From NCBI GenBank assembly GCA_017456285.1, contig JAFTJQ010000012.1, positions 1-64,000 on the forward strand: 64,000 bases of DNA, written 5' to 3'. This document shows, piece after piece, positions 23,255-40,951 of the stretch (position 1 is its first letter; each line of letters opens with the position of its first letter). This stretch comes from Lentisphaeria bacterium (lineage in GTDB: Bacteria; Verrucomicrobiota; Lentisphaeria; Victivallales; Victivallaceae). Both the position numbers and the translations under genes were made by a program. The notes under the pieces were generated by a model. That model saw only the letters and a list, made by a program, of their open reading frames with translations, was not told where the DNA came from and did no database searches.

Positions 23255-24337
23255 ATGAGAGTAGAAGACATTGCATCATACATTGAAAATTTGCGTGGGC
23301 GTTTTGCCGAGTTGGAGAAAACCTTGGCAGATCCTGCGATTTATGCTAATCAAGCCGAGTGCCGCAAGGTGTCGCAGGAGCATCGGAAACTTGATGAACT
23401 TTTTAAGTCATTTGAATCTTGGAAAAAGGTTTTGTCAGAGATTGAAGAAAACAAGGAGATGCTGACGATTGAAACCGATACCGAGTTGCGGGATTTGATT
23501 CAGCTTGATTTAGAGAATTTGGCAGTCGAAGCAGAAAAGCTTGAAGGCATTTTGAGTATGGCATTGCTTCCCCCTGACCCGAATGATGCGAAAAACATTA
23601 TTATCGAAATTCGTCCGGCGGCAGGTGGCGATGAAGCGGCACTTTTTGCTGGCGAACTGGCGAGAGCTTATCTGAAATACGCTGAAGCCAAGCGGTGGAA
23701 AGTGGAAATCCTTGAGCAAAACAGCAGCGAATTAGGCGGTATTAAGGGCATGTCATTTTCGCTTATCGGGGATAATGTTTACTCCTGCATGAAGTACGAG
23801 AGCGGTGTCCACCGAGTACAAAGAGTTCCTGAAACTGAGAGCGGCGGTCGAGTGCATACTTCAACAATCACCGTTTCCGTCATGCCGGAAGCGGAAGAGG
23901 TTGAACTTGATGTGAAGCCGGAAGACTTGCGGTTTGACGTATTCCGCTCAAGCGGTCCGGGCGGACAAAGCGTTAATACCACCGACTCTGCGGTGCGAGT
24001 AACCCATATTCCGACGGGGCTTTCAGTTGCCAGCCAGCAGGAGAAGTCGCAACATAAGAATAAAGAGATTGCGTTGCGAATCCTTTTTGCACGCCTTTTA
24101 GAGGCGAAACAGCAGGAAGAGCAGGCGAAAGTCGATGCAGACCGCCGTTCACAAGTCGGTACGGGGGATCGGTCAGAACGTATCCGCACCTATAATTTCC
24201 CGCAAAACCGAGTAACCGACCATCGGTTCGGGTTAAACATTTTTGATCTGCCGAAAATCATGGAGGGTGAACTTGATTTGGTGATCCAGCCGACGATAAA
24301 AATTGTCTGTGAGCAGCGGCTTGAGGCGTTAAAATAG
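23255..24337 (+). CDS. prfA: Peptide chain release factor 1
   Basis: A 360-residue class I release factor. The GGQ motif lies in SSGPGGQSVNTTDSAVR, and the codon-recognition loop reads RVPETESGGRVHTS, giving a P-x-T tripeptide (RF1, for UAA/UAG) and not the SPF of RF2. Length is normal. An initiator tRNA promoter begins about 50 bases after its stop. Confidence 0.96.
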   Translation: MRVEDIASYIENLRGRFAELEKTLADPAIYANQAECRKVSQEHRKLDELFKSFESWKKVLSEIEENKEMLTIETDTELRDLIQLDLENLAVEAEKLEGILSMALLPPDPNDAKNIIIEIRPAAGGDEAALFAGELARAYLKYAEAKRWKVEILEQNSSELGGIKGMSFSLIGDNVYSCMKYESGVHRVQRVPETESGGRVHTSTITVSVMPEAEEVELDVKPEDLRFDVFRSSGPGGQSVNTTDSAVRVTHIPTGLSVASQQEKSQHKNKEIALRILFARLLEAKQQEEQAKVDADRRSQVGTGDRSERIRTYNFPQNRVTDHRFGLNIFDLPKIMEGELDLVIQPTIKIVCEQRLEALK

Positions 24338-24389
24338 CAGAAATGGTCAAAAGTTTGCGAAAAAATCTCAAAAAAGCGAATAAGATTAC

Positions 24390-24417
24390 TTGTAAAAGCA
24401 AAAAAATGTGATATATT
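24390..24417 (+). promoter_or_regulatory. Promoter of tRNA-fMet copy 1
   Basis: TTGTAA, 16 bases, TATATT with GTGA before the -10; the tRNA starts 11 bases later. Confidence 0.75.
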
Positions 24418-24428
24418 ATATAAAACAT

Positions 24429-24504
24429 TGCGGGGTGGAGCAGTGGTTAGCTCGTCAGGCTCATAACCTGAAGGCCATAGGTTCGATTCCTATCCCCGCT
24501 ACCA
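24429..24504 (+). tRNA. Initiator tRNA-fMet (CAU), copy 1
   Basis: Complete cloverleaf with anticodon loop CTCATAA (CAU). Initiator features: position 1 (T) and 72 (T) do not pair, while 2-7 and 66-71 do, and the D stem GAGC/GCTC has the A11-U24 pair. The anticodon stem has two G-C pairs next to the loop, not the usual three. CCA is encoded. Identical to the copy at 29338. Confidence 0.93.
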
Positions 24505-24513
24505 AAAATTTCC

Positions 24514-24549
24514 AAGTCGGGTTCAGTAAAAAGAATCCGACTTTTTTTG
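24514..24549 (+). terminator. Terminator after tRNA-fMet copy 1
   Basis: AAGTCGG and CCGACTT pair across a 16-base loop, followed by TTTTTTTG. Confidence 0.7.
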
Positions 24550-24552
24550 TGC

Positions 24553-24762
24553 TTATTTTAGAAAAATTATGGTTGCTCCGTAGGATTTTCCTCCAGCAAG
24601 CCATAGTTTTCCACCTTTTGGGAACGTTAAACGATCACCAGAAGTAACAACTGCATCACGTATAGTTTCCTTCTGAATGATTGTATTATCCGCTGAAACT
24701 CTAAAAGGAACTGAAATAAAAAACAATAAAATCGAGGCAATAAACAAAAATTGTTTTCGCAT
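24553..24762 (-). CDS. Small secreted protein or secreted-protein fragment
   Basis: ATG 24762 has GGAGA six bases upstream. The first 24 residues form a clear signal peptide (MRKQFLFIASILLFFISV…RVSA). The mature part of about 45 residues (…DAVVTSGDRLTFPKGG…) is not recognised. The stop lies right at the edge of the tRNA-fMet repeat and terminator, so the gene may be truncated by the event that created the repeat. An in-frame ATG six codons upstream is less likely. Confidence 0.5.
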   Translation of the reverse strand: MRKQFLFIASILLFFISVPFRVSADNTIIQKETIRDAVVTSGDRLTFPKGGKLWLAGGKSYGATIIFLK

Positions 24763-24935
24763 AAATTTCTCCAGTATCATTGTTGTAAATGTTTATTCAT
24801 TATAATTTAACACATATTAAAACAGTTGTCAAATTCTGTTTTGAAAATATATAAATTAATGATAAGTCATTATTTTACAATGAAAAACGGGAACAAATTT
24901 ATTTTGAAATTGTTCCCGTTTTTGAAAATTATGAT

Positions 24936-25295
24936 TTAGGCTTGTCGATATTTTTCTATCAATTCCTTGTAGAAATAAAACGATTTTTTCGGTTCTCTGT
25001 TTGTGTTTTCAATCGAGCATTTGATGATACCGAATTGTTTGCAATATCCGTGCTGCCACTCAAAATTATCCATAAGTGACCAATAAAAATAACCTTGTAC
25101 ATTGACATTGTCTTTTTCGATTGCATCCATCATCGCTTGTATATAATCTTGGATATAATTACAACGCGCTTGATCATCATCGACCGCACAGCCATTTTCT
25201 GTAACTAAGATAGGAATATTTCCATATCGGTTTTTCATCCACTTCAACATTACAAATTCAGAACTTAAATAATTCGAGTTATTTTTTCCGAACAA
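24936..25295 (-). pseudogene. C-terminal fragment of a GH1 beta-glucosidase
   Basis: The frame encodes only the last ~115 residues of a family 1 glycosidase. ILVTENGCAVDDD carries the catalytic nucleophile Glu (TENG), and YFYWSLMDNFEWQHGYCKQFGI is the conserved aglycone region. Full-length enzymes have about 450 residues, and the acid/base NEP region is absent. An in-frame TAG lies four codons before the first possible start. So this is a remnant, presumably of a larger cargo or of the ancestral locus. Confidence 0.85.
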
Positions 25296-25449
25296 TAACT
25301 TCTTCTAATGTTGTACCTGATCTATATGTACAACAACAGTATTTAATATCAAATATATTTCAATTTTTGATTATAATATTTTTTATTGTTTAAGTATCAA
25401 ATAATTGAAATTATGTCCCCGAATATTATATTAAACTCAGAGGAGATAC

Positions 25450-25470
25450 ATGGATTTACTTTTATATTGA
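25450..25470 (+). CDS. Possible six-residue leader peptide (MDLLLY)
   Basis: ATG with a strong AGAGGAGA site, then GAT TTA CTT TTA TAT TGA. It ends 85 bases before the decarboxylase start. An imperfect hairpin follows (TGTCG…CGACA, about 25479-25515) before the decarboxylase ribosome site. The arrangement resembles leader-controlled polyamine genes, but a coding role is unproven. Confidence 0.3.
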   Translation: MDLLLY

Positions 25471-25555
25471 AAAATTTTTGTCGTAATTGGGGTAAATATA
25501 AAAATCTCCCGACACAAATCGGTATAAAAATCCATGAACAAAAGGAGGAATCAAT

Positions 25556-27886
25556 ATGAAAATAACTCTCGCTGATTGGCCGGTTCTAATTGTATCCGGG
25601 GAATTTTTAACAAATAACAACGAAGGGCACCGCTTACGAGAACTTTTAGAAGAATTAGAGAAGACTTCTGACTGCAAAACAATTTCTGCTACAACCTATG
25701 AAGATGCTCTGGAAATTTTTTCCAGCCGTGCCGATATTGGCTGTGTGGTAATTGACTGGGATTTAGAGTTTGAACAAAGCGATGAAAAAATGGCCCCTGA
25801 ATGTTTACTTAAAAATATCAGGAAACGCAATTCCAAAATTCCGGTAATTTTGCTGACAGATCATCTGGAAACAGAAAATCTTTCAAAATGTATATTAAAC
25901 CAAATCAATGACTGTCTATGGAAAACGGCAGATACCATTGAATTTATTGCAGGCAGAATTGCTAATTGGGTAAAAAGTTATTCTGAAAATGTTGTCCCGG
26001 AATTTTTCGGAAAACTTGTAAAATATTCTGAACTATATAAATATGCATGGCACACCCCTGGACATTTAGGAGGACAAGGATTCCTGAGAGCGCCTGCCGG
26101 AGTGGTGATGTTTAAATTTTTCGGAGAAAATACCTTTCGTAGCGACCTGTCAATTTCAGTACCCGAATTGGGTTCGCTATTAGATCATGAGGGCGCTGTC
26201 GGCGATGCAGAACTCCATTCAGCTCAGGTATTCGGAGCTGATCAAACCTATTATGTACTCAATGGAACCAGCACGGTCAATCAAATTATTTGGAGAAGTC
26301 AGGTGCTTGCCGGAGATATAGCTTTGGTTGATCGAAACTGTCACAAATCCCTTAATTATGCGATGGTCATTACCGGAGCAACCCCGGTTTATATGATACC
26401 TCGCCGTAACTCTTACGGTATTATCGGGCCGGTTCGATTGTCCGAATTTTCAGCTGATTCAATCAAAAAACGTATTGAAGCCAACCCTTTAATCAAAGAT
26501 AAAAATAATGTATCTCATATTCAAATGAGTGCGCTTACCAATTCAACTTATGACGGAGTATGCTATAATACCAAAGCAATTATTGCAGAAAATAATACCC
26601 GACATGCAGTAAATTTCGGACTGAACAAAACAGAAATGATTAAAAATTTTCACTTTGATGAAGCATGGTATGCTTATGCACATTTTCATCCGATTTATAA
26701 TGATCATTACGGCATGGCGATACATGATTGTAATCAGCCGGTATTTTGTTCTCAATCCACCCATAAACTTTTAACCGCATTTTCTCAGGCTTCAATGCTC
26801 CACATTCGCAATGGTGAAAAATGCAAAATTGATCCGATACTTTTCAATGAATCATATATGATGCATGGCTCGACTTCTCCGCAGTACAGCATGATTGCCT
26901 CATTAGATGTAGCAACCCAGATGATGGAGGATAATGGGAAAACTATTCTCGGAGATATCATTCAAGAAGCGGTTCAACTGCGTCGCAAAATAGCAAGTTT
27001 AGAGCGAGAATTTCGTAAAAACGATGATTGGTTTTTCAGCATGTGGCAGCCTAAACACATCCGATACAATAATACCGATATTGATTTTGCAGATTGTCCA
27101 AGTGATTACTTAGCAGAAAATCAAGCACCATGGGTGCTTAATTCAAAAGATAATTGGCATGGGTTTGAGGATATTGAAGATGATTATGTAATGCTTGACC
27201 CTATCAAACTTACGATTTTAACACCAGGTATGGGCGAAGACGGTAATCTTATTGCACAAGGGGGGATTCCGGCAACAATCGTCAGTAATTTTTTAATTAA
27301 ACATAATATTGTCTGCGAAAAAACAGATTATTATTCATTTCTGTTATTAAATTCTCTCGGGACTAATCGCGCTAAACAAGGCTCTCTTCTTGCGGCATTA
27401 TTTGCGTTTAAAAAACTTTATGATAATGATGTTCCTCTGGAAAAAGTCTTTCCTGAATTAGTAAAAAATTATCCTGACCGTTACAAGAAAGAAACCTTAA
27501 AAACTCATTGTGATAATATGCATAGTTACTTGAAAAAACATAAAATTATCGAATTAATGCATCGTGCTTTTGAAGTTATTCCAACTCCGTCAATGCTTCC
27601 CGTAGATGCTGCTGCACATGTAGTTAGGGGAAATGTAGAGATGGTCGACGTCGCTAAATTACATAATCGCACAGTTGCAGTAATGTTAGTCCCCTATCCT
27701 CCCGGGATTCCGGTAATGATGGGAGGAGAAAATGTATCGGGTGATGCTTCTATTATCGCGGAATATTTGCTTGCCAGAGAAGAATTTGAAAATATTTTCC
27801 CCGGATATGAAGGTGATATTCACGGCATTACCAGAGAAAAACGCAGTGAACGAGTTGTTTTTCGTACATTATGTATCAAAAAATAA
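25556..27886 (+). CDS. Orn/Lys/Arg decarboxylase, lysine/ornithine-like
   Basis: A 776-residue fold-type I PLP decarboxylase with an N-terminal wing domain (1-145), core and C-terminal domain. PLP elements: YAWHTPGHLGGQGF, VDRNCHKSLNYA, HFDEAWYAY and lysine K404 in QSTHKLLTAFSQAS. The segment SDLSISVPELGSLLDHEGAV and HTPGH follow lysine/ornithine enzymes (CadA/LdcC/SpeF type), unlike the AdiA-like enzyme at 12474. The exact substrate is not certain. AAAAGGAGG precedes the ATG. It is paired with the next gene, a GadC-like antiporter, and both lie between the two tRNA-fMet copies. The product is probably a diamine plus CO2, consuming a proton. Confidence 0.87.
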   Translation: MKITLADWPVLIVSGEFLTNNNEGHRLRELLEELEKTSDCKTISATTYEDALEIFSSRADIGCVVIDWDLEFEQSDEKMAPECLLKNIRKRNSKIPVILLTDHLETENLSKCILNQINDCLWKTADTIEFIAGRIANWVKSYSENVVPEFFGKLVKYSELYKYAWHTPGHLGGQGFLRAPAGVVMFKFFGENTFRSDLSISVPELGSLLDHEGAVGDAELHSAQVFGADQTYYVLNGTSTVNQIIWRSQVLAGDIALVDRNCHKSLNYAMVITGATPVYMIPRRNSYGIIGPVRLSEFSADSIKKRIEANPLIKDKNNVSHIQMSALTNSTYDGVCYNTKAIIAENNTRHAVNFGLNKTEMIKNFHFDEAWYAYAHFHPIYNDHYGMAIHDCNQPVFCSQSTHKLLTAFSQASMLHIRNGEKCKIDPILFNESYMMHGSTSPQYSMIASLDVATQMMEDNGKTILGDIIQEAVQLRRKIASLEREFRKNDDWFFSMWQPKHIRYNNTDIDFADCPSDYLAENQAPWVLNSKDNWHGFEDIEDDYVMLDPIKLTILTPGMGEDGNLIAQGGIPATIVSNFLIKHNIVCEKTDYYSFLLLNSLGTNRAKQGSLLAALFAFKKLYDNDVPLEKVFPELVKNYPDRYKKETLKTHCDNMHSYLKKHKIIELMHRAFEVIPTPSMLPVDAAAHVVRGNVEMVDVAKLHNRTVAVMLVPYPPGIPVMMGGENVSGDASIIAEYLLAREEFENIFPGYEGDIHGITREKRSERVVFRTLCIKK

Positions 27887-27903
27887 AAATAGGAGAATAA
27901 AAA

Positions 27904-29292
27904 ATGAAAAAGAGTTTTTTAAGTATTACGACAATGTCTTTACTGACGGTTGCAGCAGTTTTATCACTGCGAAATTTACCCTCAGAAGCAGAATATGGTT
28001 ATAGTGTAATATTTTATATTACTATGGCGGCGCTCTGTTTTTTTGTTCCGTCGGCCTTAGTTTCCGCCGAACTTGCTTCCAGTTGGCCAGAAGACGGAGG
28101 CATCTATTTATGGGTAAAAGAGGCATTTGGGCCTAAATGGGGATTTGTTGCAGTTTTCATGCAATGGGTGGAAAACTTACCATGGTTTCCTGCGGTATTA
28201 ACTTTTGTGGCATCTTCTATCGCCTATATTTTTAATCCTGAATGGGCGCAAAACCGCTGGTTTGTTTTAATTACCATCTGGGTAATGTTGTGGTTGGCAA
28301 CATTTCTCAATTTTCGCGGAATGCGTCTGTCGGCATGGTTAAGCAGTTCCGGAGCCTTAGCAGGCACATTAATTCCCGGTGCAGCAATTATTCTTATGGC
28401 AATGGGCTATATTATTGCGGGCAAGCCTCCGCAAATTACATTCAGTGCAGATTCTTTAATTCCGAACCTCAATAACTGGAATCAACTCATGTTATTATCA
28501 GGAATGATGGTCGCTCTTGCCGGTATGGAAATGTCTGCAATTCACGTTACAGAAATGAAAAATCCGAGTCGAGATTTCCCGAAAGCAATTTTTACAGCAT
28601 GTTTTTTGGTAATTTTATTAAGCGTATTAGGTGCATTAGCAATCGCATTGGTAATGCCGCCGAGTGAAATCAGCCTTGCCGCCGGAGCTGATCAAGCCTT
28701 TGATGCAATGTTCAAAATTTTCCATATTCCGTGGATGACTCCTATTATGTGCTTTTTGCTTTCCTATGGGGCATTAACCATGGTTGTTACTTGGGTTCTC
28801 GGCCCATCAAAAGGGGTTTTGGAAGTAGCAAAAGAGGGATATTTACCTAAGGCATGGCAACATCGCAATAAAGATGGAATGCCGACAACAATTTTAATTA
28901 TTCAAGCCATAATATCTTCGTTGTTAGCCTTGGTTGTACTTTTCATGCCGACAATCAGCGGTGCATTTTGGCTGATGTCAGCTTTAACCGCCCAGTTATA
29001 TATGGTTATGTATCTATTAATGTTTGCGGCAGCGATTAAATTGCGTTACAGCAAGCCTGATATTGCCCGAGCCTATAAAGTTCCGGGCGGCAAAATCGGC
29101 ATGTGGTTAGTTTCTGGTATCGCATTCCTTACCTCTTTTTTTGCAATTATTACCGGATTCATTCCGACTCCCGGGATTCGAGAAAAAGGCATGTTGCATA
29201 TATTGGGCTACATTGCATTTCTTTTAATCGGCATGATAGTATTTATCCTTATCCCCTTGTGGTTATATAAACACACTCAAAAAAGCGAATAA
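27904..29292 (+). CDS. GadC-like amino acid antiporter (APC superfamily)
   Basis: A 462-residue, 12-helix transporter of the glutamate:GABA antiporter type: LSLRNLPSEAEYG at helix 1, WPEDGGIYLWVKEAFGPKWGF, EMSAIHVTEMKNPSRDFPKA and WVLGPSKGVLEVAKEGYLP are GadC hallmarks. No glutamate decarboxylase is nearby; instead it follows the Orn/Lys/Arg decarboxylase by 17 bases, so its substrates are probably an amino acid and its diamine. It lacks a long GadC C-plug: the protein ends KHTQKSE, and those last codons lie inside the tRNA-fMet repeat, which suggests that its 3' end was replaced at the recombination point. Confidence 0.87.
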   Translation: MKKSFLSITTMSLLTVAAVLSLRNLPSEAEYGYSVIFYITMAALCFFVPSALVSAELASSWPEDGGIYLWVKEAFGPKWGFVAVFMQWVENLPWFPAVLTFVASSIAYIFNPEWAQNRWFVLITIWVMLWLATFLNFRGMRLSAWLSSSGALAGTLIPGAAIILMAMGYIIAGKPPQITFSADSLIPNLNNWNQLMLLSGMMVALAGMEMSAIHVTEMKNPSRDFPKAIFTACFLVILLSVLGALAIALVMPPSEISLAAGADQAFDAMFKIFHIPWMTPIMCFLLSYGALTMVVTWVLGPSKGVLEVAKEGYLPKAWQHRNKDGMPTTILIIQAIISSLLALVVLFMPTISGAFWLMSALTAQLYMVMYLLMFAAAIKLRYSKPDIARAYKVPGGKIGMWLVSGIAFLTSFFAIITGFIPTPGIREKGMLHILGYIAFLLIGMIVFILIPLWLYKHTQKSE

Positions 29293-29298
29293 GATTAC

Positions 29299-29326
29299 TT
29301 GTAAAAGCTAAAAAATGTGATATATT
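29299..29326 (+). promoter_or_regulatory. Promoter of tRNA-fMet copy 2
   Basis: Same TTGTAA-16-TATATT element as copy 1, with GTGA before the -10. Confidence 0.75.
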
Positions 29327-29337
29327 ATATAAAACAT

Positions 29338-29413
29338 TGCGGGGTGGAGCAGTGGTTAGCTCGTCAGGCTCATAACCTGAAGGCCATAGGTTCGATTCCT
29401 ATCCCCGCTACCA
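29338..29413 (+). tRNA. Initiator tRNA-fMet (CAU), copy 2
   Basis: Identical over all 76 bases to the tRNA at 24429-24504, with the same initiator features and encoded CCA. Confidence 0.93.
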
Positions 29414-29423
29414 AAAAATTTCA

Positions 29424-29453
29424 CGCCTGACTGAAAAGTCAGGCGTTTTTTTT
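29424..29453 (+). terminator. Terminator after tRNA-fMet copy 2
   Basis: Perfect 9-bp stem CGCCTGACT/AGTCAGGCG with a GAAA loop and eight T. It differs from the terminator after copy 1. Confidence 0.92.
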
Positions 29454-29471
29454 AGAAAAAAGGAGGATATC

Positions 29472-29648
29472 ATGGAGGTATTTAGATTACTTATAGGTCT
29501 GCTTGTTATAGTTGGTGTGTTTTTGATAATTAGAGAATTTTGGTGTTGGTTTTATAAATCTAACGAAATATCAAGTCAAGTAAAGGCACTTTCACGGAAA
29601 TTAGAGGAACTTTCACAGAAAGTAGATGATTTGTCCAAGAATCATTGA
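29472..29648 (+). CDS. 58-residue single-pass membrane protein with coiled coil
   Basis: ATG with an AAAGGAGGA site eight bases upstream. Residues 5-20 form one membrane helix (LLIGLLVIVGVFLIIR), and residues 34-58 form a short heptad-like coil (SSQVKALSRKLEELSQKVDDL). It is closed by its own terminator. No family recognised; the topology resembles small membrane-associated accessory proteins. It lies just outside the tRNA-bounded segment. Confidence 0.7.
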   Translation: MEVFRLLIGLLVIVGVFLIIREFWCWFYKSNEISSQVKALSRKLEELSQKVDDLSKNH

Positions 29649-29669
29649 GAGAAAATATATAAAATTTCA

Positions 29670-29695
29670 GCCAGTCACCCGACTGGCTTTTTTTG
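29670..29695 (+). terminator. Terminator after the 58-residue gene
   Basis: GCCAGTC/GACTGGC stem with a 4-base loop and seven T. Confidence 0.88.
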
Positions 29696-30184
29696 TGCCG
29701 AAAAAGTGCTTATCACAAAGGACTTTGCAAAAGAACTGAAATTCTCTAAAACCCTCCCCGGACTCCGTAGCCTCGGCGAAGGAGTCTCTGATTCTCCGTT
29801 TTTCTCTGGGACTGCGTGCCATGTCCTTCGGAGATAAAGTTTGTGTAAATCGTTGAACAACATCGAATAATAAATTCAGATCCTCGCAATGGTTTTTCGT
29901 CGCCATTGCAAAGCAGAGAATAGAATTGCACAACTCTCGTCCACAACTTCCCAAGAGTGATGTCCGCAAAATAGGAGCAACTGTACGAAAAATTCAGTTT
30001 TTTGCGTATCTTCTATTACAACGGCATGAACACAAAAAAAATAATTAATTTTTTTCATTTAAAAGTTGACAATATACTTCTGTAGAGCTATATTAAATAC
30101 TGTGCGGCATTACTGAAATGTGATAATGCTTCAAGTTTGGTAATGTTTTCCAAATAATAAAAAAGGACAAGAGGATTTTAAAAA
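29696..30184. other. Intergenic region without a supported gene
   Basis: Several overlapping minus-strand frames of 60-100 codons exist here, but none has a ribosome site or recognisable domain, and they contradict one another. A segment near 29750-29800 (CCTCGGCGAAGGAG) faintly resembles the palindromic DNA beside tRNA-Val. A promoter for the next gene lies at 30066-30094. Confidence 0.5.
30066..30094 (+). promoter_or_regulatory. Promoter of the membrane-anchored protein gene
   Basis: TTGACA, 17 bases, TATATT; about 90 bases before the start codon. Confidence 0.6.
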
Positions 30185-30682
30185 ATGGCGGAAAATAAGA
30201 AAAAAGGATCATCATGCGGGGTAATTTTTGTTGTCATCGTAATTATTTGTATAGTTTATGCTTGTAATAGTGGAAGTTCATCAAAAAACAGTAACGACAA
30301 CAACAAAACAACGGTCATTGAGCAGGTTACATCCGCCCAGAGCCAGTTCGTTAATGCCTTTTCCAGTATACTGAAATCTGGATATAAATTTCATGCGCTC
30401 TACACAACGAAATCCAAAGACTTTAGAAATGTTTACATTATTGGAGGTGTCGTAGAGAAAAATGGCGAGTATTATTCTTGTATTTGGCACTCTAATTCTA
30501 TACAAGCTAAAAACGGTAGCCTTACTGGGCTCACCTTTTCATTTGATGATGCTGCCTTTGAAGTTTCTGGAATGGGCAAAGCAAATAAAGTGAATTCTTG
30601 GGATGATGGAGTGAGTCGAATCAAAGAAAAACTTGCTGAAGAAATGCAAAAAATAGAAGAACAAAAGAAAAAAGGTCAGTAA
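30185..30682 (+). CDS. Membrane-anchored hypothetical protein
   Basis: 165 residues: a basic N-terminus (MAENKKKGS), one membrane helix at about 12-27 (GVIFVVIVIICIVYACN), a Ser/Asn/Lys linker, then a soluble domain (residues 50-140) and a Lys/Glu/Gln-rich helical tail. The cysteine at the end of the helix does not sit in a convincing lipobox. Family unknown. It has its own promoter and an AAGAGGA site. Confidence 0.65.
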   Translation: MAENKKKGSSCGVIFVVIVIICIVYACNSGSSSKNSNDNNKTTVIEQVTSAQSQFVNAFSSILKSGYKFHALYTTKSKDFRNVYIIGGVVEKNGEYYSCIWHSNSIQAKNGSLTGLTFSFDDAAFEVSGMGKANKVNSWDDGVSRIKEKLAEEMQKIEEQKKKGQ

Positions 30683-30827
30683 AAGTTTTTCTGCAAACGA
30701 CGCAAACATCATTTTCTATTCACTATGTTTTATCAATAGTTAATAAACGAGATATAAAAAATCCCTGACCGGCAAATTGAGCTTTTCAAATCTGCCAATC
30801 GGGGTTGGTAATACACAAAACAATATT

Positions 30828-31922
30828 TTATTCATCGTCCATTGAGACAGGATCTGGGATAAAATTATCATCGTCATAATATTCAGAGCAATTTCCCCAC
30901 GACAATTCAATACTTCTGGGAGAGTCTATTTCCAAAAAATCTATTTTATACTCTTCTCCTTCCTTATGGACTGTCACGATACAAGAAAACTCTCGTTTGG
31001 CTTCAACTGTACCACGTAAGCGATCCCAATATCCAATAATTCCTTTCTCTTCAGAATCATATATCCCACTATCTATATCATCAATGTCTATATGTGACTT
31101 AAAACTAAACAAACCGCTTACCGAAATCTCTGCCGTATTGTTTGCGTTATCATAATCAATAATGTCTGTGTCCATTTTTAATATATTCAAACTTTTATAG
31201 TCTACATCTGGTTCACTAAAATCATCCCATGACAGTTTATCAGGATCAATTGTCACAACTAAATCGTTAAATTGTTTTAAGAATTCATTAATGAAAGAGT
31301 TTTGAACACAATCTTTTATCATTGTCCTTTCCTGAGCAATTATAGAAGTGATAGTGTCCAATAAGGCTGGAAGAGTTTTATAAAAAGCAAATGAATTTTT
31401 ATACTCATCTCGTTCGCATATTTTTCCCCAATCTTTTGTATTTCCAGATACAATTGCGACTTTATGGCCATTATTTTTTGCCCAATTTAACAATGAATTT
31501 GCGACAAATGCATCTGGGAATTCTGTTTTCCCTCCTTGAAATGGGAACCTTGCAGAAAAATAATCATCAAAAACCTCTTCTGGATTACTATGGGATAAGG
31601 CGACTTCTTCTCCCAAATGATATAAGTTTTTTTCTATTTCATCCCAAATTTGTGCTGCCAAATCCTTGTTATTTTTTAAGATAGGTTCTATATTTTCTGC
31701 TCCAGGAATTGTATAAAAAATTTTATTTGCCTGTATCGCGTTTGTTAACTGTTTGACATGAGATTTTATATGTTTGTTAATCTCGTTTGTAACAACCGAT
31801 GAAATAGCAAGAGAAATCTCTCCAGAATTAATATGTTCTGCAAGTTTTTGAAAAAATTTGTTTTTAACAGAAAAATTGCAGCTTTCAAACACTTGAGTGT
31901 CAAGAAAAACATAATTGCCCAT
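30828..31922 (-). CDS. PIN-domain (DUF4935-like) predicted RNase
   Basis: A 364-residue protein with a PIN-type nuclease domain in the first ~190 residues. VFLDTQVFESCNF holds the first Asp, EFPDAFVANSLLNWA the second acidic site and VSGNTKDW the last, matching DUF4935/PIN_16 proteins. The C-terminal 170 residues are acidic and unassigned. Such genes occur in defence and accessory islands as presumed RNA-cleaving effectors. No antitoxin-like gene is adjacent; a truncated insertion sequence begins about 45 bases upstream of its start. Confidence 0.78.
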   Translation of the reverse strand: MGNYVFLDTQVFESCNFSVKNKFFQKLAEHINSGEISLAISSVVTNEINKHIKSHVKQLTNAIQANKIFYTIPGAENIEPILKNNKDLAAQIWDEIEKNLYHLGEEVALSHSNPEEVFDDYFSARFPFQGGKTEFPDAFVANSLLNWAKNNGHKVAIVSGNTKDWGKICERDEYKNSFAFYKTLPALLDTITSIIAQERTMIKDCVQNSFINEFLKQFNDLVVTIDPDKLSWDDFSEPDVDYKSLNILKMDTDIIDYDNANNTAEISVSGLFSFKSHIDIDDIDSGIYDSEEKGIIGYWDRLRGTVEAKREFSCIVTVHKEGEEYKIDFLEIDSPRSIELSWGNCSEYYDDDNFIPDPVSMDDE

Positions 31923-31965
31923 ATAACAACTCCTCGCAAAAAATTAATAATTATCGCATAGTACA

Positions 31966-32486
31966 CTACTGTCCGGTAAAAATTACCGGAGTTAATTGAA
32001 ATTGTCGGGATTTGTTATATATTAAAAACGCTCAAATCTTTAATATTTAACACGAAAGGCCCGAACGATGTATTACAATAGTATATATTCTCAACTTTTC
32101 AACTTCATCCCCCGATATCGTTTTGAAAAAATCGTAAAAAAGTTAGGCGGAGACCGATATTGCAAGCATTTTACCGCATGGAAACAGTTTCTGACTTTGC
32201 TGTTTGCTCAAATTTCCGGTAAGGATTCTTTGCGTGAAATTGAAAACGCTTTGCTTGCCAACCACAAACGTCTTTATCACCTCGGCATGGAGGCTGTGGC
32301 AAAATCTACGCTTTCTGAAGCAATGAACCGCCGCAATCCGGAAATATTCAAAGTACTGTTTGAAGAAATTTTTGATCGGGTCATGGCAGTTGCTCCAAAA
32401 CACAAATTCAAGTTCAAAAATCCGCTGTATGCCATTGACAGCACAACGATCGATCTTTGTCTGTCTCGCTATAACTGGGCTTATAT
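31966..32486 (+). mobile_element. Truncated IS4-type insertion sequence (left end)
   Basis: The left boundary is marked by TACTGTCCGGTAAAAATTACCGG, a palindromic IS4-like end. A promoter (TTGAAA, 16 bases, TATATT, 31996-32023) drives the transposase. Homology stops abruptly near 32486, where GC-richer foreign DNA begins, so the right two thirds are missing. Confidence 0.75.
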
Positions 32487-32490
32487 GTAG
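32068..32490 (+). pseudogene. IS4-family transposase, N-terminal fragment
   Basis: 140 codons with the DUF4372 N-terminal domain (SIYSQLFNFIPRYRFEKIV) and the first catalytic Asp region PLYAIDSTTIDLCLS, after which the frame hits a stop in unrelated sequence. Full-length relatives have about 380 residues, so the second and third catalytic acids (DDE) are lost and it cannot transpose. Confidence 0.88.
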
Positions 32491-32762
32491 CCCACGCCGG
32501 AGCGATCCTCGGCGGATGGTACAAAACCGCAGAAGCGGTCAACGCCCTTATCCCCCTCGGAGATCTCAGCGAAATCAATGAAACACTGGAAAGTTGCGTG
32601 GCGTACCACCGCGACCATGGGGAGCAGTACCGCCTCCCAAGAACATTTGCCAGCGTGGAGGACTACCAGAAAGCGGTGGATGCCGAGCTTGCGGCACTCC
32701 GCTCCGGCAACCGAAACTTTGAAGGCATCGGATGGCCCGGCAAAAATGGGAGGGTGAAATAA
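32487..32762 (+). pseudogene. 5'-truncated mobile-element gene
   Basis: An open frame of 91 residues (VAHAGAILGGWYKTAEAVN … FEGIGWPGKNGRVK) with no start; its 5' part was removed at the insertion-sequence junction. Codon use is clearly GC-richer than the neighbourhood. Its stop overlaps the next start by one base (TAATG). Function not recognised. Confidence 0.6.
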
Positions 32763-32962
32763 TGCCTGATACCAAGACCAGCATCTCCGTGCGGCTCACC
32801 GGCACGGATGTAAATATTTTTTGCGTGTTCGCCAAAGTCAGAGTGGCACTCCGTCAGAACGGACGCTCCGATCTCATCAAGGAATTCACAGATTACATCA
32901 CCAGCAGCAGTTCCTACGAAAAGGCTCTCTGCCGCGTGATGGAAAATGTCATCGTAAAATAA
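32762..32962 (+). CDS. Small protein typical of integrative elements
   Basis: 66 residues, MPDTKTSISVRLTGTDVNIF … EKALCRVMENVIVK. The pattern 'TGTDxNIF…' followed by a helical DYxxSSSSYEKAL tail is shared, to my recollection, by small proteins encoded in conjugative elements of anaerobes. GGGAGGGTGAAATA precedes the ATG. GC-rich codon use fits the fragment upstream. Probably a surviving cargo gene; function unknown. Confidence 0.6.
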   Translation: MPDTKTSISVRLTGTDVNIFCVFAKVRVALRQNGRSDLIKEFTDYITSSSSYEKALCRVMENVIVK

Positions 32963-32973
32963 ATGGAAGAAAA

Positions 32974-33180
32974 ATGAAGACCATTTTAATAGAAAAGATC
33001 GCCAAACGGCTGAAATTTTAAGAACTTATAATCACGGCATCACTTTTTATTACTTTGCTTTTAGGCTTCGGAGCGTTGTACATTGCCGTACCACTTGCAA
33101 TCGGCGTATGGAGCATAACCGGACTATGCCTGACAGCCTTTATCGGTATCCGCATTGCCATCTGGTGGTGTTACGGATAA
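32974..33180 (+). pseudogene. Small membrane protein interrupted by a stop codon
   Basis: Reading from ATG 32974: MKTILIEKIAKRLKF, then TAA, then in the same frame ELIITASLFITLLLGFGALYI and a second membrane segment to WWCYG and a stop at 33178. One nonsense codon thus splits a 68-residue two-helix membrane protein. It belongs to the same element remnant. Confidence 0.6.
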
Positions 33181-33265
33181 ATAAAATCATACTCAAAATA
33201 CCAGTAGTAGACTAAAAAATCAGTTTTTTTATTGCAAAAAATATTCAAAAAGGCTGATTTACCAT

Positions 33266-33293
33266 TTGACTTTTGTTTTTCGGCTGATATATT
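33266..33293 (+). promoter_or_regulatory. Promoter of the XRE-type regulator fragment
   Basis: TTGACT, 16 bases, TATATT, about 45 bases before the start codon of the helix-turn-helix gene. Confidence 0.65.
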
Positions 33294-33336
33294 ACAAGCA
33301 AAGCTTGTATTTACCGACAACCACGATGGCGAAAAA

Positions 33337-33492
33337 ATGGAAGCATCGTATAAAAAACTTTGGAAACTTTTAATCGATCGGGATATGTCGAAAATTGATT
33401 TGCGTTTGAAAGCGGGAATCAGCACCATGGCTTTGGCTAAATTGGGTAAAAATGATTTATTACACCAAGATAAAAACAGGCTTAAAACTTGA
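33337..33492 (+). pseudogene. Cro/C1-type HTH regulator fused to a restriction-gene tail
   Basis: From ATG 33337 the frame encodes an XRE helix-turn-helix (YKKLWKLLIDRDMSKIDLRLKAGISTMALAKLGKN) and then turns into nonsense. From 33452 another frame reads MIYYTKIKTGLKLEIEE and stop (33505), which is nearly the C-terminus of the MjaI-like enzyme 600 bases downstream (MIYYTKTKTGLKIEVEE). So a deletion joined the regulator to the tail of a restriction-endonuclease gene. An intact relative probably served as a restriction-modification controller. Confidence 0.75.
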
Positions 33493-33523
33493 AATTGAAG
33501 AATGATATGAGAGGTAAGACTTT

Positions 33524-34116
33524 ATGGAATACGAAATGCAATGGACTCAACTTCCAGCCTATGTAGAAGATAAAAAAAGAAATTTAAGACATATTATTCT
33601 GGATTCATCAATGATGCCAATAGGTACGGAAAAGGCACAAAAAAAGAAAACGTCGGAGTAATGTTTAATGAATTTAAAAAATTTTGCAAAACAGTTGAAA
33701 CGCCAGAACTCGACAGTTGGATAGAATGGTATAACACGAACCATAAAGGAGCTATAGAAAAAGCAACCAAAGCCACCTTTGCAAAATTGCAAGAAATGAG
33801 GCGTAATATAGAAGAAATAAAGGAAGATGATGTTGAAAAATGGATTCGTGATCTCGTTATTACAAAATCTTTTAATGGTTTATACCTTCAACGAGAAATA
33901 ATAAAATTTATTGCCGCTCAAAAAAATTCAACTTTCAGAGAATCAACAAAAGAAGAGGAAGAATCTAAAGGTATTGACGGATATATTAATAATGTCGCAT
34001 ACTCTGTAAAGCCTGACAGTTACAAGCAAAAAAGACGAACATTAGAAAAGATCGAAGCCAAAATGATTTACTACACAAAAACTAAAACAGGCTTAAAAAT
34101 CGAAGTTGAAGAATAA
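33524..34116 (+). pseudogene. MjaI-family restriction endonuclease, frameshifted
   Basis: The first frame (ATG 33524) gives MEYEMQWTQLPAYVEDKKR … SSMMPIGTEKAQ and stops. With one extra A in the A7 run near 33638-33644 it continues KKENVGVMFNEFKKFCKTVETPELDSWIEWYN… to EVEE at 34116, the MjaI-type enzyme. The likely nuclease region is EEEESKGIDGYINNVAYSVKPDSYK. A single-base homopolymer change has split the gene; slippage could in principle restore it. MjaI-type enzymes cut CTAG, which fits the nearby methyltransferase; target assignment is by family only. Confidence 0.78.
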
Positions 34117-34144
34117 TGTGGAAGAGCACAAAGGGAATATGGAA

Positions 34145-34450
34145 ATGCTAAAAAAAATAAATGAGATTTTGTTGAATCATAAAGGTAAACAAAATCGTAT
34201 TACAGCTGGAAAAATTGCTTTGGCACTTGGGATCAATGAAGATGCTACTCATGCAAAAACACGAGCATTGATTTTTGAATGTGCAAAAAAATATGAGTTG
34301 CCGTTAGCCGCTAACAATAGAGGATATTATCTTATAACATGTCAAAAAGAATACGATGAATATATGGCTAACCTTAATTCAAGAAAAGCAGGCATCGAAG
34401 AACGGCAAGAAATCATTACAAAGAATTTCGACAAAGATAAAACCGTTTAA
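34145..34450 (+). CDS. Winged-helix DNA-binding protein
   Basis: About 101 residues from ATG 34145 (AAGGGA eight bases upstream; GTG 34118 and ATG 34139 are alternatives). The sequence KQNRITAGKIALALGI…THAKTRALIFECAKKYELPLAANNRGYYLI looks like a winged helix of the kind found in phage and mobile-element regulators. It follows the restriction gene closely and converges on the methyltransferase. Possibly a controller; function unproven. Confidence 0.6.
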   Translation: MLKKINEILLNHKGKQNRITAGKIALALGINEDATHAKTRALIFECAKKYELPLAANNRGYYLITCQKEYDEYMANLNSRKAGIEERQEIITKNFDKDKTV

Positions 34451-34470
34451 TTGGTCGTAGCAGAAAAATA

Positions 34471-34499
34471 AAAAGGGGGATTGCCCCCCCCCTTTGTAT
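34471..34499. terminator. Probable bidirectional terminator
   Basis: AAAGGGGG pairs with CCCCCTTT within a C9 run, between the convergent winged-helix and methyltransferase genes. Confidence 0.5.
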
Positions 34500-34510
34500 T
34501 TAAGCAAAAA

Positions 34511-35536
34511 TCAATACGAGCATCGTATGAAAGTATCCTGAGCTTCTACTGTTGCCACTTTGTCAATTTTGATATTAACTTCTTGCTTAGTTTTAACCGC
34601 GAATCCATGATGCTGATTATCGTAACATCGTTCGCGCTTGTCTGTCGGGAGTGAATTGATAAAATCAAGGTGCCTTTTCAATCTTTCCTCAATCACCGCA
34701 TTGAGAGACTCAGGAGTGACACAAATATTCTCTTGAGCTAACTTTGCGATTTCAGGATCAATTTCCACACCAATACTATTGCGATTAGCTACCATGCAAG
34801 TAAGGTTTGTTGTTCCAAGACCTGCAAATGGGTCAAGAATGGTATCTCCCTCTGCTGAGTACATATTTACCAGTCTATATGGGACTTCAAAGGGGAACGC
34901 TGCGCTGCGATCCCGACTCGCTTTAGAAGCCTGTATTACCTGAGATGTTCCTTTTATATCCCACAAGTCAGAAAACCACACATTCCTCTCTTCCCAGAAA
35001 AAAGCACTCTTTTGACGAAGTTTTTTTGCATTTCCATTAAATTCACGTTTATTACCTTTTCTGAAAATGAGAATATACTCATGTTCGTAGGTCACATACG
35101 CTCCCGCAGGAAACATACCTGATCCCATAAACTTATTGGGGGCATTGGATTGTTTACGCCAGTGAATATCCGGAAGAACGCAATATCCCTTTGACAAAAA
35201 ATACTCTATGATTCTTGTATGGTTAGAATAAAGCTGAAAATTCCCATCAATTGTCCTCGTCGCATCACCAATGTTGATACAGACAAAGCCATTTTCAATG
35301 AGAACACGATCACATTCAGCCCAAGTCTGGTCAAGCAATTTATGCATTTTTTGAAATGCGTCCATTCCCTTTCTCGCACTCAAACTGTTCTTGATAGAAG
35401 GGTCTTGATTTATAAACATCTCATCCCACATTTCAATCATGGGATAAGGAGGTGATGTCACTATCAAATGGACAGACTGATCTTTGATTTCAGTCAAGCT
35501 TTTACTGTCTCCTATTAAAATTTTATGCTCTGTCAT
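34511..35536 (-). CDS. DNA methyltransferase, N4-cytosine type (CTAG-like)
   Basis: About 341 residues with the beta-class order of motifs: catalytic IVTSPPYPMIEMWDE near residue 25, then the SAM-binding ILDPFAGLGTTNL about residue 240. TSPPY is the form usual in N4-cytosine enzymes. ATG 35536 is preferred; a 48-codon in-frame extension only covers the opposite phase of the upstream HTH gene. Its C-terminus is acidic and cysteine-poor. With the broken MjaI-like enzyme it formed a type II system; the methyltransferase frame is intact, so it may now be an orphan or protect against related enzymes. Confidence 0.88.
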   Translation of the reverse strand: MTEHKILIGDSKSLTEIKDQSVHLIVTSPPYPMIEMWDEMFINQDPSIKNSLSARKGMDAFQKMHKLLDQTWAECDRVLIENGFVCINIGDATRTIDGNFQLYSNHTRIIEYFLSKGYCVLPDIHWRKQSNAPNKFMGSGMFPAGAYVTYEHEYILIFRKGNKREFNGNAKKLRQKSAFFWEERNVWFSDLWDIKGTSQVIQASKASRDRSAAFPFEVPYRLVNMYSAEGDTILDPFAGLGTTNLTCMVANRNSIGVEIDPEIAKLAQENICVTPESLNAVIEERLKRHLDFINSLPTDKRERCYDNQHHGFAVKTKQEVNIKIDKVATVEAQDTFIRCSY

Positions 35537-35723
35537 ATCTATTCTTATCTTTCTCTGAAATCCATCTGTCAATTTCAGATTTTTTAAATTTCCACAGTCG
35601 TCCAAGTTTATGCGCAGGCATATCAGTATTTTTAATCCAATTCCGAATGGTATCTTTGCTGACACCAATGTAAGTTGCAATATCTGCCAAGCTTAATAAA
35701 TTATCATTTGTTTTTGCCTACAT
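35523..35723 (-). pseudogene. Excisionase-type HTH protein with stop at codon 2
   Basis: The frame reads ATG TAG and then 64 codons of a complete HTH_17/excisionase-like domain (LLSLADIATYIGVSKDTIRNW … AHKLGRLWKFKKSEIDRW). Apart from the TAG it looks intact, with a good promoter and a GGAAG site before the ATG. Its end overlaps the methyltransferase start by 14 bases, so it would be the upstream partner and possibly controller of the methyltransferase. Either the TAG is a nonsense mutation or translation starts at a non-standard codon after it. Confidence 0.65.
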
Positions 35724-35743
35724 AAAACTTACTTCCAAGTCCT

Positions 35744-35771
35744 AATATAGCACACTTTGGCCAAAAATCAA
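35744..35771 (-). promoter_or_regulatory. Promoter of the HTH–methyltransferase unit
   Basis: On the minus strand TTGATT, 16 bases, TATATT, with GTGC before the -10, 20 bases ahead of the ATG-TAG. Confidence 0.7.
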
Positions 35772-35999
35772 TAAGGAATATATTGGATTATATATGAAAA
35801 GATATGAATAACTATGAAATAATCGTAATTTTTCTCAGTAGGGGCTCCAATTTTGTAAAAAGCAAGTTGCAAAACGAAGAATAATGTCATTTAATTATTG
35901 AAAATAAACAACTTACAGACTTGCTAATGCTCGAATTGCATGGCAATGTATGCACCAGGAAAAGATAGCAAACAAGTTAAACATCAAGGAGATACAAAA

Positions 36000-36290
36000 A
36001 TGCAGAACACAATCGAAACCATGAAAAACCTGACTTTCGGAACCGAGCTTGAATATACCGGAATCGTTCGCCAGATCGCCAACATCGCGCGGATTTTTTA
36101 CAAGCAGGAAGAGCTGATTTTGAATGCCGCCGGAACCTTTGAAACCCGGCTTTCGCACTACACCAAACGCACTGACCGGTACAGCTCCACCGGTGAAGTC
36201 TGGCACACCACCTTGCCCAGCACCCGCAGGGCATCATTCAAAACACGCTTTTCTACTCTCATAAAACCTCCTTTTAAGTTTAGAATTTAA
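36000..36290 (+). pseudogene. Amidoligase-like gene remnant
   Basis: ATG 36000 follows CAAGGAGATA. The start MQNTIETMKNLTFGTELEYTG has the FGxElExTG signature of putative amidoligases (Amidoligase_2), but similarity fades after about 20-40 residues and the frame runs on into a gene start on the other strand. Full proteins have about 300 residues. GC-richer codons match the remnants at 32.5-33.2 kb, so both are probably parts of one decayed element. Confidence 0.55.
36158..36262 (-). pseudogene. 5' fragment of an unknown mobile-element gene
   Basis: On the minus strand an AAAGGAGG site precedes ATG 36262, and 34 codons (MRVEKRVLNDALRVLGKVVC…) run to a stop in GC-rich codon use. The excellent ribosome site and plausible protein suggest a true gene start that has been fused, tail to tail, with the amidoligase remnant by deletion. 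Confidence 0.4.
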
Positions 36291-36436
36291 AAACACAAAG
36301 CCCTGCCGATTCCAAAGAACCGGCGATGCTGATATTTGATCGTGGACTTATTCCACTATAGTGATATATAATTAACTTTATAATGAAAAGCAGTGTTGCT
36401 TAAAATAAATCTTTGTGCTTTTAAAGAAAAATGCTT

Positions 36437-36464
36437 GACTTTTTTGAAAACAACTGTATATTAT
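36437..36464 (+). promoter_or_regulatory. Promoter of the Vsr–Hachiman operon
   Basis: TTGACT, 16 bases, TATATT. The -10 lies between two related half-sites (AAAACAACTG and AAAACAGTTTTG), which could be a repressor site. The start codon is about 120 bases downstream. Confidence 0.65.
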
Positions 36465-36586
36465 TACTGAAAACAGTTTTGAATATAATAAACAGGCAGA
36501 AGAAAATCAGCGGAATTCATACAGCTACGAGTCCATCAGAGACATTTTCTCAAAGAATCGTTTAATCGAGTTGAAGGATTTATAAC

Positions 36587-37000
36587 ATGGATCATTTGAC
36601 ACCGGAAAAACGCAGTTGGAATATGAGCCGTATCAAATCAAAAGATACGACTCCTGAATGCATTGTGCGCTCATTTCTCCATCGTAATGGTTTCTGGTTT
36701 AGGCCCCATGCAAAAGACCTCCCGGGTAAGCCGGATATTGTCCTGCCGAAATATAAAACCTTGATAGAAGTCCGCGGCTGCTATTGGCATAGACACGAAG
36801 GATGCAAGGACTCGACAACGCCATCAACAAATACAGAATTCTGGAAAAAGAAGTTTGCTACTAATGTTTCTCGGGATAAACAAAACGAACAGGAACTGAA
36901 AAAACTCGGTTGGAATGTGATTGTCATCTGGGAATGTGAAATTGCTTCGGCAATAAATAGTCTGATTTCCCGAATTAAAACTGTTGGAATTAAAAAATGA
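36587..37000 (+). CDS. Vsr-like very-short-patch endonuclease
   Basis: A 137-residue Vsr-family nuclease. The sequence follows the family: MSRIKSKDTTPE, LHRNGFWFRPH, LPGKPDIVLPKY (catalytic Asp), then EVRGCYWHRHEGC (zinc-binding Cys/His), FWKKKFATNVSRD and LGWNVIVIWECE. In classic Vsr the segment is IFVHGCFWH; here the first His is replaced by Arg (VRGC), which may alter metal or mismatch recognition. Vsr normally accompanies a 5-methylcytosine methyltransferase, but none is nearby. Instead its stop overlaps the HamA start by four bases (ATGA), so it is the first gene of a Hachiman operon. Confidence 0.9.
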   Translation: MDHLTPEKRSWNMSRIKSKDTTPECIVRSFLHRNGFWFRPHAKDLPGKPDIVLPKYKTLIEVRGCYWHRHEGCKDSTTPSTNTEFWKKKFATNVSRDKQNEQELKKLGWNVIVIWECEIASAINSLISRIKTVGIKK

Positions 37001-37872
37001 GTGATGCAATTAATATTTTTCAAAACAAACCAGAAGATTTTTTCTGCAATAATGGTGTTATCTTACATAACATCTCACTCAAACCTGGGATATTAGGCTT
37101 AAATGTGGGTTATGAAGAGTCTGTTTGGCGTTATGATGAGTTTGCTGAGTATTTGATAGAATGGCTGCCTGAATTTGCACTAAAATATTCTGATGTAAAG
37201 AAAATAAATTATGCAAATGCTAGACAATTTTTAAAAAAAGCGGCAAAAACAGTTTACCAAACGGACAAATATCAAAATAGAGGAGAGTTTGGAGAACTGA
37301 TATTGCATGCCTTAATAAGATGTTTTTTTAATTCACAACCTGCAATAAGCAAAATTTACTATAAAACTGCCGCAAATGACACCATAAAGGGGTTTGATGC
37401 AGTTCATGTGGTTGAACAATCTGATGGTCTTGAGTTATGGCTGGGAGAAGCAAAATTTTACAAAAATATTGATCAGGCTATTGGTGATGTTATTGAAGAA
37501 TTACAAAAACATATCCAACGGGACTATTTAAAAGACGAATTTTTGCTTGTGGAAGGAAAAATAGATGAACAATGGCCTTATGCTGAAGAACTAAAAAAAT
37601 TATTGAGTCCCCGACATAGTTTGGATCAACTTTTTACAAAAATCTCTTTTCCTGTACTGCTAACATATGAAAGTACGGTTGTTAAAAATTATAAAGCTGT
37701 TTCAGATGAATTTATAAAAAACTTGACAGAAGAGATTCTCATCCACTACAACAAATTTAAGGGACAATTAAGTAATAATTCAATAAAAATTCATTTAATT
37801 TTACTTCCTTTGGAATACAAACAAACCCTTGTCAATACTCTTAATTTGAAATTGGAGGGCTTGCAAAAATGA
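36997..37872 (+). CDS. hamA: HamA, Hachiman anti-phage effector nuclease (DUF1837)
   Basis: A 291-residue DUF1837 protein. The predicted PD-(D/E)xK nuclease core is visible: E100 in RGEFGELILH, D134 in KGFDAVHV and E151-x-K153 in LGEAKFYKN. In Hachiman systems HamA is the nuclease held inactive by the HamB helicase until phage DNA is sensed. Identification rests on this motif set plus the adjacent helicase. Both ends overlap the neighbouring genes by four bases. Confidence 0.88.
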   Translation: MSDAINIFQNKPEDFFCNNGVILHNISLKPGILGLNVGYEESVWRYDEFAEYLIEWLPEFALKYSDVKKINYANARQFLKKAAKTVYQTDKYQNRGEFGELILHALIRCFFNSQPAISKIYYKTAANDTIKGFDAVHVVEQSDGLELWLGEAKFYKNIDQAIGDVIEELQKHIQRDYLKDEFLLVEGKIDEQWPYAEELKKLLSPRHSLDQLFTKISFPVLLTYESTVVKNYKAVSDEFIKNLTEEILIHYNKFKGQLSNNSIKIHLILLPLEYKQTLVNTLNLKLEGLQK

Positions 37873-39989: not shown

Positions 39990-39999
39990 AAGGACGAAT

Positions 40000-40479
40000 A
40001 TGAAACTATATCACGGAAGTAATATGGCTGTGCCGAATCCTCAAATTCTGGTGTCAGACCGGAAACTGGATTTTGGTACTGGCTTTTATTTAACATCAAG
40101 TATTGAACAGGCTGAGCGCTGGGCTGAACTCACAACGGAGAGACGTGGAGAAGGCAAGCCGACAATTACGATCTATGAATTTGACGAAACTGTATTTGCA
40201 AATCTCAAGGTGATGCATTTTGAGAAAGCTAATAAAAAATGGTTGGATTTTGTTGTTGCCAATCGTGAAAACACTGTAGCGAATCAAAAATGGGATATAG
40301 TAATTGGTCCCGTTGCAAATGATAGAACAATGCCTGTGATCAGGATGTTTATTGCAAAAGTGTATACTGTTGCAGAAACCCTCCGGCGTTTGTTACCCCA
40401 GAAACTGCATGACCAGTATACCTTTAAAACAGAAAATGCGTTGCAGCATTTGAAATTTGAGGAGATTATTGAAAAATGA
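40000..40479 (+). CDS. DUF3990 protein, predicted ADP-ribosyltransferase-like toxin
   Basis: A 159-residue DUF3990 protein. It opens LYHGSNMAV and continues LDFGTGFYLTSSIEQAERWAEL, a His/Tyr-containing pattern shared with ART-fold enzymes (RES, DarT-like), with a possible catalytic Glu in the C-terminal half. ATG 40000 has AAAGGA upstream; a longer in-frame start overlaps hamB. DUF3990 genes commonly occur with DUF3791 genes and are suspected toxin–antitoxin pairs. It starts ten bases after hamB, so it is part of the defence operon. Confidence 0.78.
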   Translation: MKLYHGSNMAVPNPQILVSDRKLDFGTGFYLTSSIEQAERWAELTTERRGEGKPTITIYEFDETVFANLKVMHFEKANKKWLDFVVANRENTVANQKWDIVIGPVANDRTMPVIRMFIAKVYTVAETLRRLLPQKLHDQYTFKTENALQHLKFEEIIEK

Positions 40480-40727
40480 GTTTGAAAGAAGATATGGTCG
40501 TAATGCTTGATTATTACGACAAAGAAATAGTAAAAATGATTTGTAATAAATACGGATATGATCAAAAGGAGGCTCTGCGTAAATTCCTTGTCTCTGAAAC
40601 TTACCGTATGCTGCGCAATCCGAAACTTGCAATGTGGGATTTCAGCCCCGCAGGAATTTTTGATATGTGGGAAAGTGAGCAAATTACAGGCAATCCCAGA
40701 AACTCGCTGTACATAAGGAGGGATTAA
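40476..40727 (+). CDS. Small conserved partner of the DUF3990 gene
   Basis: 83 residues, acidic N-terminus and a conserved-looking tail (FSPAGIFDMWESEQITGNPRNS). It overlaps the DUF3990 stop by four bases and the next gene by one. I recall similar proteins next to DUF3990/DUF3791 genes but no assigned function. A role as antitoxin or adaptor is inferred from the gene order. Confidence 0.65.
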   Translation: MSLKEDMVVMLDYYDKEIVKMICNKYGYDQKEALRKFLVSETYRMLRNPKLAMWDFSPAGIFDMWESEQITGNPRNSLYIRRD

Positions 40728-40942: not shown

Positions 40943-40951
40943 AAGGAACAA

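Follow-up and report, generated by a model that had tools for sequence, protein, structure and literature searches.

Genomic islands that target tRNA genes and grow by accretion, together with CIMEs, (cis-mobilizable elements), resemble the locus described here in having a hotspot at the tRNA 3' end, nested elements and an integrase-less element with att-like ends, here directly behind the second tRNA gene (both systems are treated in PMC5704250 and PMC7563491). In contrast to these islands and CIMEs, the 4.9-kb segment at this locus is bounded by a full promoter and tRNA gene rather than by a 3'-end att copy, and one of its ends cuts a gene. Tandem gene duplications flanked by repeats are alike in their microhomology joint and in direct repeats that permit loss or amplification, whereas the downstream flanks of the two tRNA copies are wholly different here. 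A further likeness is to homology-facilitated illegitimate recombination, in which, as described in PMC3240628, one end is joined by homology (142 bp in the present case) and the other by a microhomology of a few bases; here only the end product is seen, in a natural genome. For the genes that the segment carries, the closest counterparts are the AdiA-AdiC, CadA-CadB and GadB-GadC pairs, in which a decarboxylase likewise lies beside an APC-family antiporter, although at this locus an enzyme of the AdiA/Ldc family is paired with an antiporter that is GadC-like and not AdiC- or CadB-like.

The initiator tRNA gene and its upstream DNA are repeated

The locus lies within a 64,000-nucleotide stretch of a Lentisphaeria genome, which was analysed at its full length and is called the window below (Table 1). 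A sequence-only reading of this DNA had reported that a promoter and an entire tRNA-fMet gene are repeated with one mismatch over 138 bp at a spacing of 4909. Our analysis confirmed this repeat and extended it to 142 bp without gaps, the single difference being an A at 24400 and a T at 29309. Each copy comprises 62 bp of upstream DNA that includes an AT-rich promoter-like stretch (P), the whole tRNA-fMet gene and AAAA. Both genes were identified as tRNA-Met(CAT) of the initiator type by ARAGORN and Rfam, and they are the only full tRNA-fMet copies in the whole genome (2.42 Mb in 92 contigs), which upholds the statement that the cell has two initiator tRNA genes. A 20-nt probe from the tRNA 3' end, allowing up to 3 mismatches, matched both tRNA genes and revealed no further att copy, either across the window or over contig positions 64001-100000; shuffled sequences gave 0 matches, which excludes a chance origin of the repeat.

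Both tRNA-fMet genes should be functional. Their anticodon stem is A-G-G/C-C-T in place of the usual G-G-G/C-C-C, a feature common to the relatives compared, and both carry an extra D-loop base that is absent from most relatives. The repeat copies differ by one mismatch in 142 bp while the promoter region of the sister species (G001) has strongly diverged, and their near-identity suggests that they either arose recently or have been homogenised. Carrying two tRNA-fMet genes is nothing unusual in this group, as about ten family genomes do so and one genome of the same order has four in tandem.

Table 1. Features at the duplicated tRNA-fMet locus (window coordinates)
Feature	Position	Strand	Evidence or remark
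prfA, encoding peptide chain release factor 1; neighbour on the left	23255..24337	+	Pfam PCRF and RF-1
Repeat copy 1	24367..24508	+	Upstream/promoter DNA, whole tRNA-fMet and AAAA
tRNA-fMet copy 1, intact	24429..24504	+	No pair between positions 1 and 72 (bases T1 and T72); ARAGORN; Rfam RF00005, 67.9 bits
Terminator-like hairpin T1, behind tRNA1	24505..24550	+	Resembles DNA beyond the G001 fMet island; score 21 against shuffle mean 4.1 (0/500)
69-aa ORF with signal peptide	24553..24762	-	
GH1 glycoside hydrolase C-terminal remnant, 119 aa	24936..25295	-	PF00232, profile positions 343-450 of 453, E 9.5e-32
Orn/Lys/Arg decarboxylase, AdiA/Ldc family, 776 aa, intact	25556..27886	+	PF01276/PF03711/PF03709; PDB 6q6i_A, E 5.9e-186
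GadC-like amino-acid antiporter, 462 aa	27904..29292	+	TIGR03813; last codons from the tRNA repeat
Repeat copy 2	29276..29417	+	New joint, within the antiporter gene, at its left edge (29276)
tRNA-fMet copy 2, intact	29338..29413	+	Identical to copy 1; ARAGORN, Rfam
Integrase-less defence element, 12.7 kb	29414..42137	.	Ends shared with the G001 element
Terminator-like hairpin T2, fMet island left end as in G001	29414..29455	+	95% over 40 nt; score 33 against shuffle mean 3.8
T3, terminator-like, directly behind tRNA-fMet in many family members	29663..29700	+	97-100% over 38 nt in G031, G082, G043, G062, G017
Decayed tRNA 3'-end copy CCGCgACCAAA, element right end, followed by hairpin T4	42129..42139	+	1 mismatch; alone not beyond chance

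The segment carries a decarboxylase-antiporter cassette

No recombinase was found among the ORFs between 24508 and 29276. The 69-aa ORF had no relative among the fetched loci. The GH1 gene, described earlier as broken, is indeed represented by a C-terminal fragment that corresponds to the last quarter of the gene. When GH1 was sought as a native flank of tRNA-fMet, a GH1 gene was found near an fMet att copy in G038 only (43% identical), and the DNA after T1, with the remnant ORF and the GH1 fragment, was not found as an fMet flank in G001 or G011. To the left of the segment, the suggested look for a single tRNA-fMet after prfA in relatives found none: in the DNA downstream of prfA, all 30 relatives examined have prfA apart from tRNA-fMet, which rules out a conserved prfA-fMet neighbourhood.

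The decarboxylase belongs with AdiA and the lysine decarboxylases, scoring 730 bits against NCBIfam AdiA (cut-off 1167) and 621 bits against the LdcC/CadA family (cut-off 968), and the antiporter scores 499 bits against GadC (TIGR03813; cut-off 650). Alignment to solved AdiA/Ldc enzymes did not assign the decarboxylase to one substrate, and its pairing, as an enzyme of AdiA/Ldc type, with an antiporter of GadC type does not point to one substrate either. The segment had been labelled an acid-resistance segment, and what stands of that label is the adjacent and conserved decarboxylase-antiporter pair, while neither protein reaches the curated thresholds (AdiA, LdcC, GadC). An acid-resistance role of the pair is plausible, and more broadly we infer a role in acid or polyamine metabolism. 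A second decarboxylase, nearer to AdiA (1134 bits, cut-off 1167), is encoded at 12474-14762, 12 kb upstream of the segment.

The antiporter gene adjoins the decarboxylase gene in nearly all fetched loci that have a full decarboxylase homologue (about 57% identity or more), and close decarboxylase relatives come from Lentisphaeria/Lentisphaerae MAGs, several of them from ruminant colon or caecum, which makes a gut Lentisphaeria MAG the most likely source of the window. The two genes form a cassette of about 3.75 kb that many family members share at 72-77% DNA identity, and its neighbours differ between genomes wherever a longer contig was read. Taken together, these comparisons indicate that the decarboxylase-antiporter pair is a nomadic cassette.

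The tRNA-fMet 3' end is a hotspot occupied by a defence element

Copies of the tRNA 3' half, which begin at the anticodon stem/loop and carry no promoter, are present in five relatives (G001, G017, G038, G046, G072). Tyrosine-integrase fragments lie near fMet sites in G038 and G017, large serine recombinases or fragments of them in G062, G078 and G017, and DNA-methylase or restriction-modification genes follow tRNA-fMet in G062, G071, G072 and G011. In addition, 8 of the 20 fetched relatives' contigs end within 400 bp after tRNA-fMet, as is expected of a variable site. These observations mark the 3' end of tRNA-fMet as a hotspot of integration in this Lentisphaeria family. A search of viral contigs with the tRNA 3'-half pattern gave no match. 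Two viral contigs matched a tRNA-internal pattern and were ruled out as relatives of the locus, being phage tRNA arrays unrelated to it; each has an initiator-like tRNA-Met inside its array (L180, 7355-7431; L181, 8726-8802).

Directly behind the second tRNA gene lies a 12.7-kb element that the earlier reading had overlooked and that is the real island at this locus. Its defence cluster spans 33661-40479 and includes Hachiman HamA/HamB, the cargo genes being an MjaI-type REase (33661), an N6/N4 MTase (34511), Vsr (36587), HamA (36997), HamB (37869) and DUF3990 (39970). Compared with the restriction-modification element of G001, the left 40 nt are 95% identical and the right 190 nt 89.5% identical, while the cargo differs. 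No integrase or recombinase was found among the element's ORFs that were examined, and the only two Phage_integrase (PF00589) proteins of the genome itself (G000) are on other contigs. The element thus resembles a CIME in its att-like ends, of which the right remnant is weak, in having no integrase, and in ends that are shared across different cargo. T3, which elsewhere follows tRNA-fMet directly, lies only 250 bp inside the element, which suggests that the defence element may be two accreted elements of which one end has been lost.

T3 and the stretch after it (29663-29969, which includes a listed minus-strand ORF of 100 aa) are found beside tRNA-fMet in several genera, and this stretch has the look of dispersed non-coding DNA, not of a gene. 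A 165-aa protein encoded at 30185-30682 has a counterpart in one other genome of 61 (G006, 86%), likewise just downstream of tRNA-fMet.

The sister species has a single tRNA gene that matches the joined outer flanks

The sister species G001, of the same genus, has a single intact tRNA-fMet (C161), and the proposed comparison with relatives lacking the segment thereby yielded an empty arrangement. A composite built from the DNA left of copy 1, the tRNA and the DNA right of copy 2 aligned to G001 without interruption (176 of 201 positions identical). Its score was 124.5, whereas the two copies, each with both of its native flanks, reached 100.5 and 114.0; to the left of repeat copy 1 the similarity is weak, with 10 of 500 shuffles equally good. 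G001 thus fits the outer flank of each copy, and compared with it the window carries a 4909-bp insertion that includes one copy of the tRNA.

The order in G001 is tRNA, T2, restriction-modification element, short tRNA remnant, T3, a second defence stretch (type I restriction-modification, reverse transcriptase and GmrSD), a 3'-half tRNA copy and a T1-like hairpin, so that T1 is DNA beyond the island and T2 the left end of the island. On the best reading, tRNA1-T1 would be the empty and tRNA2-T2 the occupied configuration, such that two alleles of one hotspot stand in tandem. In a search of 78 family genomes, two intact tRNA copies on either side of this cassette were found in no genome but this one; the parts are all of known kinds, and the arrangement was seen in none of the 77 related genomes.

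Two hotspot alleles may have been stacked by homologous exchange and an illegitimate joint

Repeat copy 2 begins within the antiporter gene and supplies the final four codons and the stop of that gene (Q-K-S-E-stop); upstream of its tRNA, copy 2 has just the 62-bp region, joined directly to the antiporter. Close antiporter homologues whose end was read are longer and have a different tail after the L-Y-K-H-S-Q-K region, and the antiporter retains its membrane-spanning part, minus only a few C-terminal residues. At the joint is a short A-rich match, CTCAAAAAA. The position of the joint inside a gene and at such a match indicates illegitimate joining.

Our preferred account, which we hold with moderate confidence, is that two alleles of the hotspot were stacked in tandem with the decarboxylase-antiporter cassette caught between them. 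The starting locus would have been P-tRNA-T2-defence element, and an empty allele of that locus, P-tRNA-T1-remnants-decarboxylase-antiporter, would have been the donor. A single homologous exchange inside the P-tRNA stretch that both alleles share, together with an illegitimate joint at CTCAAAAAA connecting the antiporter tail to the DNA upstream of P, would set the alleles one behind the other, each with its complete tRNA, and all joints would thereby come from a single event. RecA acting at the 142-bp direct repeats should then be able to amplify the segment or to excise it as a 4909-bp circle, with one intact tRNA left behind. We infer the order of these events, the source of the donor DNA and the instability. 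Against this account, no donor allele was found, as the DNA behind T1 does not flank tRNA-fMet in G001 or G011; the similarity to G001 left of repeat copy 1 is weak, and the assembly is fragmented.

The segment had also been described as an island or a tandem duplication at a tRNA. An insertion or duplication at the tRNA that is absent from relatives was borne out, while a site-specific island was not supported. A tandem duplication has the same DNA after both copies, and here T1 and T2 and the DNA that follows each are unrelated; because the DNA after the two tRNAs is wholly different, a plain tandem duplication is an incomplete explanation. The main rival, which we judge unlikely, adds to it: after a microhomology-mediated tandem duplication of P-tRNA through the antiporter, the T2 element would have integrated at the second tRNA and the remainder of the second unit would have been lost. 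The end-to-start joint from the antiporter tail to the DNA upstream of P-tRNA is exactly the novel joint expected of such a duplication, G012, G040 and G019 have fMet units in tandem, and elements insert at the tRNA 3' end in relatives. However, this route requires an extra integration and a deletion, the genome has no second copy of the segment's decarboxylase apart from a 39%-identical paralogue at 12.5 kb, and the DNA past the right end of the defence element does not match T1 and the DNA after it. A tandem duplication followed by island exchange would yield an end product identical to that of stacked alleles.

That the 4.9-kb segment is itself a site-specific island with the tRNA as attB, or a degraded former one of the cis-mobilizable type, is very unlikely. 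The fMet hotspot of relatives has 3'-half att copies and recombinases, in G017 the start of the same decarboxylase lies 2.7 kb from an fMet att copy, and the segment is absent from a relative with an intact empty site (G001), as an island would be. In contrast, the repeat is not limited to the tRNA 3' part and has the 62 bp upstream and the tRNA 5' half that are missing from att copies elsewhere, and the segment has no integrase and ends on the right within the antiporter gene, all of which argue against site-specific integration. The site-specific-island reading is largely refuted by the extent of the repeat.

It is equally doubtful that the cassette was inserted later between the copies of an older, short tandem tRNA pair. 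Short tandem pairs with 120-143 bp spacing do occur in the order (G019, G012, G040), whereas G001, of the same genus, has one intact copy, the tRNA copies in the window are near-identical, and the 62-bp upstream region of copy 2 abuts the antiporter. An assembly artefact, with the repeat misresolved between the chromosome and another molecule or strain, is less likely still: the assembly is fragmented and the truncated contigs of relatives mark the spot as hard to assemble, but the antiporter/P joint lies outside the repeat and so does not come from repeat confusion, and splitting at the repeat would need a 4909-bp circle without a replication gene.

Implications for the Lentisphaeria hotspot

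The locus gives reason for caution, as repeats of a whole tRNA do not by themselves prove a site-specific island. There is a slim prospect that duplicated initiator tRNA genes serve as portable direct repeats, by which a cassette could be gained, lost or amplified at the hotspot through RecA only, with no integrase and with the essential tRNA never interrupted. The comparisons document that, in gut Lentisphaeria, defence and cargo elements have a hotspot at the initiator tRNA-fMet. The stacked-allele reading would add an example of two hotspot alleles ending in tandem, in which an essential tRNA was duplicated and a metabolic cassette carried along without the help of a recombinase.
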